Source: Candidatus Poseidoniales archaeon (GTDB taxonomy: Archaea; Thermoplasmatota; Poseidoniia; Poseidoniales; Poseidoniaceae). Taken from it: a stretch of 59,219 bases of DNA. Position 1 is the first letter of the stretch, and each line of letters opens with the position of its first letter. Location of the stretch: positions 36,854 to 96,072 of the forward strand of contig QQRY01000057.1 of NCBI GenBank assembly GCA_003602575.1, given 5' to 3'. A program made the position numbers and the translations under genes. Of the stretch, positions 48,855 to 58,735 are shown piece by piece. Under the pieces are notes generated by a model. The model saw only the letters and a list, made by a program, of their open reading frames with translations. It made no database searches and was not told the DNA's origin.

Positions 48855-51461
48855 TCAATCATCCGATTCTTTTTCATCAAAAAGAGGAATATCATCATCT
48901 CTTTTCTTTATTGGAGAGTTAGCCTTTGAATGACTTTTTGTTCTAGAAATTATTTTTTCAACCTCTGAAATTATTTTACCAATTAGCACAGGGCCCCAGC
49001 CTCTAAGTTTGAGAAGTTCATTTTTCTTAGAACGACTCATAGAAATTACTTGTTGTGGAGTCCTAATTCCTAAATTAGCCAGTTCTCTAGCACGCGAACG
49101 CCCAATATTTCTGATATTGACTAGAGTTAGTAAGTCCTCTTTACAACCATGCCTGGTCCTCTGTCTCAAAATATCTACCTTCTTGATAATTTCAGAAATT
49201 TCCGACATGTGTTCTTGTGAGAAAACATCATCTGCAATCAGAATCTCCTTCGAAGCTAGCAAAAGCCAAGATGCCAAATCTACTCTATGATGTAAATCAC
49301 CCGGGCTTACATCCAAACTTTTCTCTATAGAACGCATGCTTTCTTCATTGTTCCATTTATCAATCAACCATGCGGATTTAATATTTCCAAGTAACATTTC
49401 GTCATAAGAAGAATCAGCCAAAAGTTCATTTTCTACTGAATTAGTCTTTAGCCAAAGGTTTGAATTTATATCCATATCACTATTTTTCGCCCAAAGGGAT
49501 GAGAAGTCTGGAGTTGTAGCGATCAAGTGCAGTAAGCCAAAATTTGTTACCTCTCCACTTTTCCTAACCTCTCTTCTAACAGCCCTTCTTAGACCAACCC
49601 TCAACAAGGATGCAGATAAAGGATCTAAATACAACTGTGTTATTCTTTCACCCATCAAAGTTGCTTCGTATTTCATTGCAGAAAATTCAGTTTTATCATC
49701 TAATTGCCATGCCCCTACATGAGATAATTCTGTAGCTTTTTTAAATCCAAAACTTGGTTCACCAAATGCTGAATTGAAAATTTTATTTGGTTTATTTTCT
49801 CCTGTAGGTTGAAATTCAACACCAATGGTTGAATGTGCTATATTTGCCCATACTGGCATATTGTCATCCCAGTCTTCAGCATCGTTAATTTTCTCATCTG
49901 CTCGCTTATTGGCATAGGATTCATCAACACCTAATCTTCTAATGAATCTTTCATCTACTAACCAATTAAGCATCTCATCAATTCTTTCATTGAGAATATT
50001 CTTAGAGATGCTGAATCCTAAGAAAGTTGATTCAAAAAAATCACCAATATCTCCACGATGTTGCAGCCCACCGGTGGAAATTATCGATAGAAGATGAGTC
50101 CGTAGTGCTGGTTCACTAGCCAACTTAGAAGAAATTGATTCTATTTCTCCAAAAAAATATCTTTCGCTGACATCATCAGCAATCTCCCAACCATCTGTAC
50201 CTTTACAGAGAATCCAAGCCTCACCATAATCATCATACTTTGGCCGGCCTGCACGCCCTAACATTTGTCTAACTTCCATAACTGGTAAAGGACGACTCAT
50301 GCCATCTCCCCATCTTTTTACATCCCTAACTAATACTCTTCTCGCTGGAAGGTTGACTCCCGCAGCCAAAGTTGGGGTTGCAGTCAAAGCGATTAGAAGC
50401 CCTTTTTTGAAGGCTGATTCAATGGATTTTCTTTGACTATGTGTAAGACCTGCATGGTGAAAAGCGATCCCCCCTTTGATACACTCGTACAATTTTTCTC
50501 CCATTGCAGTCTGCGTTCTTCCTTCAAGTGATTCTGCAAACTCCTTTAGCAGATTCAGCCTATCTTGATCTTCTTTTTCTAGTAATTTGGAAACTCTCTT
50601 CGATAATTTGAGAGCTTCAGATTCGGCGCTTCTTCTAGTTCCAACAAAAATTAGTAACTGCCCTTTCTGCATAATCGTATCTTTTAGAACAACCCATGTT
50701 GGTTGTGTCTTTGGACCATCTAAATCTCTTGGAGGATTCAATACGTCTGGTGAATTTGAGACTTCTGATGATTGTACAAGTCTAGGTTCTAAATGTAGAT
50801 CATGAAAAGTACTGTATTCTAGAGCAACCGGCCTCCAATCTGATTGTATTAAGTCTGCATCTAGCCAATTTGCTAAGTCTTGGCAATTGCCAACTGTTGC
50901 AGATAATGCTATCAATTGAGCCTCTTTTCTAAGGAATCTAAGTTTTGTTAGATTAATTTCTAATGTAGGTCCTCTTGTCGAATCATTCATCAGATGAAAT
51001 TCATCTGCAACCACTATGGAAACTCTAGACATAGTCTGTGGCTTATTTCTAATTATAGAGTCTAGTTTTTCAGATGTACATACTAAAATATCGCATTCAT
51101 CAATTTTTTTGGCTTCTGAAGAAGAATCCCCAATTCCCAAACCAACTGTTAGATTTAGTGATTTAGAAATTTCTTTTAGATCTTCAAATTTCTCACTGGC
51201 CAATGCTTTCAACGGTACAATATAAATCGCTTTAGTTCCAATTTCTTCAACCATTAATTTTCTTAGAATTGCGATATAAGCTACCAGTGATTTACCACTC
51301 GCTGTAGGTATGGCTAAAAGCACATTTCTTCCTTTGAAAATTGACGGCATCGCTTCAAATTGAGGGGGGTGTAACTTAGTAATACCCCATTTATCAGTAA
51401 TGAAATCTTTTACTGAATCTGGCAAATCCAGTTCGGAAATACACTCTTTCCCGGCCGCCAT
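48855..51461 (-). CDS. hel308: Hel308-type Ski2-like DNA helicase
   Basis: AIPTASGKSLVAYIAIL, DEFHLM, SATVGN, FHHAGLTHSQRK, QMLGRAGRPKYDDYGEAWI; C-terminal HhH. Confidence 0.95.
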   Translation of the reverse strand: MAAGKECISELDLPDSVKDFITDKWGITKLHPPQFEAMPSIFKGRNVLLAIPTASGKSLVAYIAILRKLMVEEIGTKAIYIVPLKALASEKFEDLKEISKSLNLTVGLGIGDSSSEAKKIDECDILVCTSEKLDSIIRNKPQTMSRVSIVVADEFHLMNDSTRGPTLEINLTKLRFLRKEAQLIALSATVGNCQDLANWLDADLIQSDWRPVALEYSTFHDLHLEPRLVQSSEVSNSPDVLNPPRDLDGPKTQPTWVVLKDTIMQKGQLLIFVGTRRSAESEALKLSKRVSKLLEKEDQDRLNLLKEFAESLEGRTQTAMGEKLYECIKGGIAFHHAGLTHSQRKSIESAFKKGLLIALTATPTLAAGVNLPARRVLVRDVKRWGDGMSRPLPVMEVRQMLGRAGRPKYDDYGEAWILCKGTDGWEIADDVSERYFFGEIESISSKLASEPALRTHLLSIISTGGLQHRGDIGDFFESTFLGFSISKNILNERIDEMLNWLVDERFIRRLGVDESYANKRADEKINDAEDWDDNMPVWANIAHSTIGVEFQPTGENKPNKIFNSAFGEPSFGFKKATELSHVGAWQLDDKTEFSAMKYEATLMGERITQLYLDPLSASLLRVGLRRAVRREVRKSGEVTNFGLLHLIATTPDFSSLWAKNSDMDINSNLWLKTNSVENELLADSSYDEMLLGNIKSAWLIDKWNNEESMRSIEKSLDVSPGDLHHRVDLASWLLLASKEILIADDVFSQEHMSEISEIIKKVDILRQRTRHGCKEDLLTLVNIRNIGRSRARELANLGIRTPQQVISMSRSKKNELLKLRGWGPVLIGKIISEVEKIISRTKSHSKANSPIKKRDDDIPLFDEKESDD

Positions 51462-51552
51462 GTTTAGACTGTCGCGCCAACAGTCCAAAAGGACAACGCT
51501 TGAAAGAGTAATTCCGACACCCATAAGACCCCTCGACTACTCACCTTACAAC

Positions 51553-52191
51553 ATGAGCGATGAGATTGACTCTATTATTGAAGACCGACTTTCAGTTTTT
51601 GACGACGAACCGGACCTCAATGACTGGGTGGAAGTGATGTGTGGAGCCGCTATGGCTGTTATCGGAATATTTCACTTAGTTCAGCCTGGCGAATTGGTAG
51701 ATCCTGATATTATGAGATGGTTTGCAGCTGCAGTAGTTGCCGCTGGTGCGGTATGGGCAGGGCACGGGCTGAAAGATATGGCTGTTAAAGAGGTTAGACG
51801 CTCTATTGCAATCCTAGAACTCTCAGGTGAAATGCCAGCAGAAGGGCCAAATCACGGACTCATTAGAGACGTATTACTAAATCCTGAAGATTACAAAAGT
51901 TTCCTCATTGAAGCGTATAACGCCGCTTGGGACGATGGAATAATTACTGAAGAAGAGCTAAACGAACTGAAATCATTCCAAAGTGCGCTTGGAATCTCTG
52001 ACGAGGAAGCCGCTGAAATGAATGTTGAGGCTGCAATAAAGTCCGCAGCCAAAGATGGAGAAATCAGTGAAAAAGAAGAATCGATGATAAAGAAAATCGC
52101 AGAAGATGCTGAAATGGACGCAGAAAGTAAGGTGGAAGAGGCTAAGACTAAGGCTAAAAGTAAGTCTAAATCTAAGTCAAAAAAGAAGTAA
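51553..52191 (+). CDS. Two-TM membrane protein with helical DGxIxxxE repeats and Lys/Ser-rich tail
   Basis: Hydrophobic segments near N-terminus; WDDGIITEEELNELKSF and AKDGEISEKEESMIKKI; tail KTKAKSKSKSKSKKK. Confidence 0.6.
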   Translation: MSDEIDSIIEDRLSVFDDEPDLNDWVEVMCGAAMAVIGIFHLVQPGELVDPDIMRWFAAAVVAAGAVWAGHGLKDMAVKEVRRSIAILELSGEMPAEGPNHGLIRDVLLNPEDYKSFLIEAYNAAWDDGIITEEELNELKSFQSALGISDEEAAEMNVEAAIKSAAKDGEISEKEESMIKKIAEDAEMDAESKVEEAKTKAKSKSKSKSKKK

Positions 52192-55948: not shown

Positions 55949-58735
55949 TCACTCTTCTTCTTCGTTCAAAGCCTTCAACTTCATTGCTGCTTCAAATTCT
56001 TCTCGGTCAATTACACCGTCTTGATTTGTATCCATTTCATCGAAACCTTCGTCTTCATCATCAATTAATTCCGCTGGTAATCTTGCAACGAAAATAATTT
56101 GATCACTAAATCCAGATTTACCCTTATTCCTCAATTCCATGATTCTAGTACCCTTCGATTTCTTGGACTTAGTCTCCTTGGTTTGGTTAGCCCTTAATCT
56201 AATCATCATACCTTTCTTAGTCAAAACAAATAAGTTGTCATCAAGATTTGGAATATGCCTTGCTGCAATAATTTCATCATTTTCTTCCTTATCGATGTTC
56301 ATAGTAAATGCTCCTTTAGCACCAGGATTGGTTTTTCTATATCCATCGGTTCTTTCCATCAGTTCTCCAGTCTCTTTGTCAACTTTTTGAACACCTTCAG
56401 CATCTAGGTAAGGAATCTTCTCAGCAGTACCAAGTCTACTTCTCTTAGCCATACCATTCTTCGAGATAGTCAAGATTTGTGTTTCTGTATTATCTGTAGC
56501 GATCATTCCAACTACATGACCTCCATCAGCACCCTTTCTATTACCAGTCTTTATTCCATAAACACCAGCAGAGACTCTACCAGATGCTCTGATTTTTTGG
56601 CACGCAAACCGACTTGCAAATCCTGTACTGGAAATCATAACTATATCCGATTGGTCTGTTCCACACCTTACATTGACCAAACTATCACCATCAAGTTTGA
56701 ATCTTAAAGCATATTTTCCATTTCTATTGATTTTTACATATTCCTCTAAACGAGTTTTCTTGATAAGACCCAATTTAGTTGCAAATAATAGATAATTACC
56801 TTCAGGGGTTTCAAGAAGTTCTCTAGATATTGGTAGAATAGTGACAATATTTTCATCTTCTCTAAGGCTTTCAAGCAAGTTTCTGATATGCCCCCCTCTC
56901 GAATGTCTACTTCCCAATGGAGTTTCCCAAGCCTTCAAGCCGTATACTCTACCTTGATCTGTAAAAATTAGTAATCTGTCTTTGCTGAAACATGTAATGA
57001 TTAGTTGAGGAGTATCTTCTGCCTTGGTTGCGACACCTTTGAGTCCTTTACCTCCTCTATTTTGAACTCTAAATGATTCAACAGGTAAATGACGAATGTA
57101 ATTATCTTCACTTAGAGTAATTGCAATGGCTCTCTCTTCAATCAAATCTTCTCTGTCCATGGAAAGTGGCATTGGGTCAATGTAAGAGCGCCTTTCATCA
57201 CCATGCTTCTCTACCATTTCATTAAGTTCGGTTAGTAAAATATCTAACCTCCTAATCCTTGAAGAAATGATATCTTGTAAATCTGCAATCTTTATCTGTA
57301 ATTCAGAATATTCATTTTGAACTTTGTCAACATCAAGACGGCTCAATTGATACAATCTTCTCTCCGCAATTGCCTTAGCTTGTGGTTCAGTGAAATCAAA
57401 TGCTGCTATCGAACCCAATGTTTCATCACCACGCAGAACAGACTCAAACTGCTCACGACTAGCACTCGCTTTACCGACTGCAATTACATCATCAATACGA
57501 TCTTGAGCTTTGACAAGACCTTCTAATATGTGGGCGCGTGATTCAGCTTTTGACAATTCAAATACAGCACGTCTTTCTATCACAGATTCTCTGTGTTCTA
57601 CATATGTGTGAAGTATGACTGGCAAGGTCAATAAAACTGGCCTACCATCTAGAATACCCATCATATTTGCAGAATAGGATTCTTGTAAACGACTAGACTT
57701 GTATAATTGGTTCAATACTGCATGAGGGTCTGCATTATTCTTTACTTCAATTACAACTCTAATACCTTCCTTGGAAGACTCATCTCTAATGTCTCTAATT
57801 CCTACAACTGTCCCTTTACTAACCAAATCAGCAATATGGACTAACATATCTGCTTTTTTGACTTGGTATGGGATTTCATGGACAATGATTCTCTTTCCTT
57901 TCTGGTCATCGAGGACATCACACTTTGAACGAACATGGAATCTTCCTTTGCCTGTTGAATACATATCATATATTCCATCAACGCCATGAATTCCTGCTCC
58001 AGTGGGGAAATCAGGACCTTGTACATGCTCCATGTAGTTTTCTATAGAAATACTTGGCATCTTATTTTCATCGACTCCTTCTTCGATAATCGTCTTGACG
58101 TGCAAGTCAATTGCACCTGCAACCTCAGTCAAATTATGAGGTGGTATTCGTGTCGCCATACCTACAGCAATACCATCACTTCCATTCAATATCAAGTTTG
58201 GAAGTCGTGATGGAAGAACTGTTGGCTCCTGTTCAGAATCATCGAAATTGGGTTGGAAGTCAACTGTTTTCTTATCAATGTCCTCAAGCATATGTTTGGA
58301 AATTCGATCCAATCGACTTTCTGTATATCGCATAGCAGCAGGCGGGTCGCCATCTATGGAACCGAAATTCCCTTGTCCGTCTACCAAAGGATATCTAAGT
58401 GAGAAATCTTGAGCCATTCTAACCATTGTATCATAGATTGATTGATCACCGTGAGGGTGATACTTACCCATTACTTCTCCAACAGAACGAGCTGATTTAC
58501 TGAATTTCTTATCGGCAGTATGCCCGCCTTCGTGCATTCCGTAAAGCACTCTTCGGTGAACCGGTTTTAGACCATCTCTAGCATCGGGCAATGCTCTTCC
58601 AATTATCACAGACATTGCATAATTAATGTAAGAGTTCTTCATTTCCTCTTCCAAGGGCTGATTCAAAATATTTCCTTGGGGAACTATTTCGTCATCTTCT
58701 TCGGTGTTCTCTATATTTTCTTCTTCAGATGTCAA
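55949..58735 (-). CDS. gyrA: DNA gyrase subunit A with C-terminal EF-hand motif
   Basis: [31 protein letters not shown]; catalytic Tyr [12 protein letters not shown]; beta-pinwheel with GQVYGL-type strands; TTG start. Confidence 0.98.
55997..56032 (-). other. EF-hand loop [12 protein letters not shown] within GyrA C-terminus
   Basis: Checked on the reverse strand: GAT ACA AAT CAA GAC GGT GTA ATT GAC CGA GAA GAA; fits D-x-[DN]-x-[DN]-G-x-[ILV]-D-x-x-E. Confidence 0.9.

Follow-up and report, generated by a model that had tools for sequence, protein, structure and literature searches.

In E. coli, DNA wrapping by GyrA is repressed by the acidic C-terminal tail of the subunit, and the effects of such tails vary by species (PMC7038939, PMC4643928). 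These sources describe acidic tails from two bacteria, E. coli (Tretter and Berger 2012) and B. subtilis (Lanz 2014). A different regulatory element has been placed in M. tuberculosis GyrA, where a putative Ca2+-binding EF-hand motif in the linker between the N- and C-terminal domains (NTD-CTD linker) modulates activity (Karkare 2012, NAR 40:9774, cited in PMC4643928 and PMC4297366), and modulation of a gyrase by Ca2+ through an EF-hand-like site is therefore not new in principle. Nor are EF-hands as such new in Poseidoniales, since earlier work noted, in general terms, calcium-binding families that are specific to subgroups of this order (PMC9258230). EF-like loops located in acidic disordered chains typically bind with a Kd of ~100 uM (PMC8391695). 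A 2022 study of archaeal gyrases mentions no EF-hand, calcium, or acidic tail (PMC9348778), and a literature search that took in a minority of the subscription papers found no description of an EF-hand at the extreme C-terminus of a gyrase. The earlier note on this DNA, which knew of no EF-hand in GyrA tails, thus holds for the extreme C-terminus, but it must be read beside the putative Ca2+-binding motif published for the M. tuberculosis linker.

The gyrase described here comes from an archaeon, Candidatus Poseidoniales (Marine Group II), inside Thermoplasmatota, family Poseidoniaceae, so the bacterial GyrA tails named in the earlier note serve as a comparison only. Marine Group II archaea are uncultured and are among the commonest archaea of the surface ocean. 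The window, by which we mean the whole 59,219-nt stretch of DNA that was analyzed, belongs to a 1.97-Mb MAG that is ~87% complete. Its gyrA gene (55949..58735, minus strand) encodes 928 aa from a TTG start that lies within the end of the adjoining gyrB (58725). The product scores above the curated cut-off of the NCBIfam equivalogs for DNA gyrase subunit A, matches PF00521 and five PF03989 blades, and carries a GyrA-box, QNRGGKG, at residues 558-564. Its C-terminal DNA-wrapping domain (CTD), which includes the GyrA-box and together with the tail spans 55952..57178 (minus strand), was modeled by AlphaFold2 as a pinwheel whose top Foldseek matches are solved GyrA CTDs. Given the NCBIfam call, the GyrA-box, and the resemblance to solved structures, the product is a true DNA gyrase subunit A. 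The reading frame is unbroken from the start to the TGA at 55949-55951, and the reverse-strand codons read through in frame to the same terminal residues that the earlier note had given.

Following the last blade, GyrA ends in an acidic tail (residues 888-928; 55952..56074), and between that blade and the terminal EEE sits a single EF-hand motif, all on the minus strand. The entering (E) helix comprises residues 896-901 (56033..56050; helix 377-382 of the AlphaFold2 CTD model) and is marked by conserved hydrophobic positions, Phe at -4 and Met at -1 of the loop. The loop itself, placed by profile matches and conservation at residues 902-913 (55997..56032), presents the expected ligands D902, N904, D906, the V908 carbonyl, D910, and E913 at positions 1, 3, 5, 7, 9, and 12, together with G907 at position 6 and the hydrophobic I909 at position 8, and thus fits the EF-hand consensus at every coordinating position, as had been claimed. 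The plausible exiting (F) helix is likewise predicted by AlphaFold2, which places it at residues 911-927 (55955..56005), running into the terminal EEEE (55952..55963) recognized by tail comparison. Pfam EF-hand_1 (PF00036) matches the whole of GyrA at 25.7 bits (gathering threshold 25.4) and the last 63 aa at 30.6 bits. EF-hand_5 (PF13202) matches the tail alone at 30.4 bits (cut-off 25.9) and the whole protein at 25.7, and the GyrA tail is its top match in the entire genome. The helix-loop-helix comes from AlphaFold2 prediction only, with moderate confidence: in the model of the CTD with its tail, the short helix 896-901, the loop, and helix 911-927 have confidence values of about 54-74, and the tail modeled alone adopts the same arrangement with pLDDT up to 90. 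Foldseek neighbors of the tail model are nearly all EF-hand proteins, although the shortness of the model keeps their E-values above 1 and hence non-significant; one of them, EhCaBP1, superimposes at 0.7 A over 33 columns (E>1). EF-hands normally come in pairs, although lone ones exist and pairing is usual rather than defining. That GyrA has only one is therefore expected to lower affinity and leaves the family assignment unaffected. A canonical EF-hand at the extreme C-terminus of GyrA, the central claim of the earlier note, is supported by profiles, conservation, selection, and structure prediction.

EF-hand families are hit at E<0.01 by every one of 18 diverse aligned tails (alignment A1). 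Across 55 EF-hand tails, which were chosen (like the pN/pS set) by a ligand-pattern expression so that strict ligand invariance is partly built in, loop positions 1, 5, 6, and 12 (D1, D5, G6, E12) are invariant, position 3 is D or N, position 8 is I or V, and position 9 is D, S, or T, with substitutions at the remaining ligand positions confined to residues able to bind Ca2+. The flanks of the loop in these tails show a fixed F at -4, M, I, or L at -1, and F or Y at +1. The bimodality of HMM scores that defines the 71 carriers described below is independent of the ligand-pattern expression and is not built in. Loop residues are thus kept in Poseidoniales orthologues, and the objection that they might not be conserved fails. 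Fourteen close pairs, each independent of the others, gave a pN/pS of 0.04 in the gyrase body and 0.07 in the motif, against 0.36 in the stretch directly behind the motif; in close pairs the motif is under strong purifying selection. The order is similar when all pairs are taken (motif 0.23, last blade 0.40, following residues 0.87), at which depth synonymous sites are near saturation. An identical loop-region peptide is encoded by differing codons in the window species, a g3 species, and Thalassarchaeaceae, and a degenerate loop was seen once (L238, YTDGDGVVSREE, with D1 changed to Y). When the 41-residue tail was shuffled, a comparable loop pattern arose in 0.05% of permutations; together with conservation and selection, this led us to reject a chance origin of the motif.

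A profile of the last blade and tail was searched against 319 Poseidoniales genomes, 279 of which gave a match to the GyrA C-terminus, and 71 of those 279 have the EF-hand tail, leaving out a contig-end fragment (G106). The two classes are separated by a gap in score, the carriers reaching at least 162 bits with matches that reach or near the end and the rest scoring at most 146 bits with matches that end before the motif. Carriers are spread over at least five genera and two families, with 35 in the genus of the window, 7 in g3, 19 in g5, and one in g9 (Poseidoniaceae) and nine in g19 (Thalassarchaeaceae). The closed MG-II chromosome CM001443.1 (L265) has the tail; most of the order is without the module. 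In a sample of 390 genomes from across the phylum, the GyrA matches that lie outside the order stop short of the tail, none of them having the EF-hand, and no relatives of the tail were found in phage records (tblastn) or in viral contigs. On an unrooted GyrA tree of 133 rows built without the tail columns, the presence of the EF-hand needs at least 12 changes (13 on a tree of 114 rows). The EF-hand is a module that comes and goes among Poseidoniales GyrAs, and its absence from most of the order, taken with these changes, indicates that it is not essential. The closest lineage without it (L007-L009) has GyrAs with 92-93% protein identity to that of the window; there, DEFDS, a remnant of the entering helix, precedes a shortened tail, which favors loss of the loop by deletion.

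Several further features of these genes were observed. Genera g1, g3, g5, g9, and g10 are each scattered over distant branches of the 133-row tree, and Thalassarchaeaceae g19 groups with Poseidoniaceae. Such intermixing of genera on an unrooted GyrA tree suggests that gyrA may have been exchanged between Poseidoniales lineages, or that some bins are mixed. In three g9 genomes (L110-L112; G161, G162, G133), GyrA is ~940 aa long and similarity to the window GyrA is lost after residue 643, part of the DNA-wrapping domain having strongly diverged or been altered. An in-frame TGA interrupts the gyrA of L003 (G029) at about codon 88, probably through an assembly or sequencing error.

EF-hands also occur on other proteins of the host genome. 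On the contig of the window, the 781-aa V/A-type ATPase subunit I contains a mid-protein EF-hand pair (G000:C53:147784-148023; L125, L285) that matches Pfam EF-hand_1 at 29.2 bits and EF-hand_7 at 30.2 bits. A 725-aa multi-pass membrane protein (L297:434-2611) has a terminal EF-hand pair (G000:C51:48234-48470) followed by a SAP domain; its likeness by eye to an oxidase found no such Pfam match and was discarded. Over the 80 residues of the EF-pair module the two proteins are 61% identical, and EF-pair matches in frames about as long as the V-ATPase subunit or the membrane protein were present in most of the same-genus genomes sampled. From their sequences, the two pairs would appear to be a shared mobile module. 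An amino-acid permease carries a C-terminal EF-hand pair and, as in GyrA, a terminal EEE (L132; G000:C35:68332-68391), and further loci (L119/L121, L120, L122, L124, L130) comprise a zinc-ribbon membrane protein, in which several EF-hands occur, as well as an amidohydrolase and a Tudor-like protein, each bearing an EF pair. With EF-hand pairs on the V-ATPase subunit, the permease, and others, Ca2+-binding proteins are therefore common in the lineage. Within the window, a 263-aa ORF (51400-52191, plus strand) has a likely membrane stretch, judged by eye, weak similarity to TerB, and acidic repeats (DDGIITEEEL/KDGEISEKEE).

We propose, as the simplest and likeliest reading, that the EF-hand tail is a form of the regulatory acidic tail of GyrA that responds to Ca2+ or another metal, a reading to which we assign roughly even odds (a probability of about 0.5) and for which the Ca2+ site of M. 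tuberculosis GyrA offers a functional precedent. Ca2+-responsive supercoiling, as suggested in the earlier note, is plausible for the predicted EF-hand, and we infer that the loop binds Ca2+, that it folds on binding, and that this affects wrapping. In the absence of Ca2+, the tail, strongly negative at about -15, would stay extended and compete with DNA for binding to the positively charged rim of the wrapping domain. Binding of Ca2+ by the loop would cause the tail to fold, with ~two charges fewer, and to shift away, and this folding and departure would alter both the wrapping of DNA and the set point of supercoiling. The Ca2+ affinity of a lone EF-hand is normally low; the tail may answer only large Ca2+ rises, or it may pair in trans, either with its counterpart on the other GyrA subunit of the A2B2 enzyme or with a different EF-hand protein.

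The constant position and strong conservation of this lone EF-hand would also suit a structural metal site, permanently loaded with Ca2+ or Mg2+, that caps or stiffens the acidic tail and senses nothing; Dx[DN]xDG sites are commonly structural (PMC3123361). Such a cap should resist loss, yet it is missing from relatives as close as L007-L009, and lone EF-hands are weak binders, which speaks against permanent loading. We regard a purely structural site as possible, if doubtful. It is unlikely that the EF-hand serves mainly as a docking module, binding the second GyrA tail, GyrB, or a cellular EF-hand protein to recruit or localize gyrase, even though EF-hands usually pair, gyrase contains a GyrA dimer, several multi-EF-hand proteins are encoded in the same genome, and the structural neighbors of the tail include 1cta, a 34-residue lone EF peptide that dimerizes.

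The remaining explanations dispense with an EF-hand altogether. GyrA tails are generally acidic, and all 133 Poseidoniales tails compared, with or without an EF-hand, end in EEE or GEE; tails of the EF type average 41 aa with a net charge of -14.9, and those without it average 21 aa and -10.2. Because tails without the EF-hand are also acidic and share these ends, the basic role of the tail does not need the EF-hand. The alternative offered in the earlier note, that the loop is a mere acidic tail, would make its likeness to an EF-hand accidental and leaves unexplained the invariant ligands, the F at -4/+1, G6, the I/V at position 8, the low pN/pS, and the Pfam matches above cut-off. Distant GyrAs, moreover, encode the same 12-residue loop with different codons, and we consider an accidental resemblance highly improbable. 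Although the window derives from an incomplete MAG, an assembly chimera or frameshift near 56030 is excluded for practical purposes, since this tail is shared by the closed chromosome CM001443.1 and by dozens of MAGs of independent origin.

If the Ca2+-responsive tail is the correct reading, a conserved gyrase EF-hand would tie Ca2+ to genome-wide DNA topology. A broader and more speculative proposal, which we think improbable as a whole, is that intracellular Ca2+ sets chromosome supercoiling in Poseidoniales through a switchable gyrase EF-hand, within a wider set of EF-hands on housekeeping machines such as the V-type ATPase, the permease, and other membrane proteins. Regardless of the mechanism, the finding draws attention to EF-hand fusions in Poseidoniales as a group of proteins that has been little described, and makes Ca2+ control of DNA winding in these archaea a testable idea. 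Since close species differ by a module of ~20 residues, they provide natural matched enzyme pairs for biochemistry.

Like the M. tuberculosis site, the Poseidoniales EF-hand is an EF-hand-like motif in a gyrase A subunit, one that in M. tuberculosis modulates activity; the two differ in location, the NTD-CTD linker in M. tuberculosis and the extreme C-terminus in Poseidoniales. A linker comparison found no Dx[DN]xDG loop in the equivalent stretch of the window GyrA, and we therefore reject homology to the mycobacterial linker site and consider the two sites independent. Like bacterial acidic tails, the Poseidoniales tail follows the last CTD blade, is strongly acidic, and is not conserved across lineages, but it holds a canonical EF-hand, whereas PMC4643928 and PMC7038939 do not present the bacterial tails as metal binders. 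As in Excalibur-like and condensed-charge Ca2+ motifs (PMC8391695), a single EF-like loop lies within a highly acidic stretch, and their Kd of ~100 uM is a fair guide to its affinity; the Poseidoniales tail differs from them in its predicted and conserved flanking helices. In its 12-residue loop with all ligand positions and its entering and exiting helices it resembles EF-hand proteins (PF00036, PF13202), from which it is set apart by being single rather than paired and by its fusion to a DNA topoisomerase.
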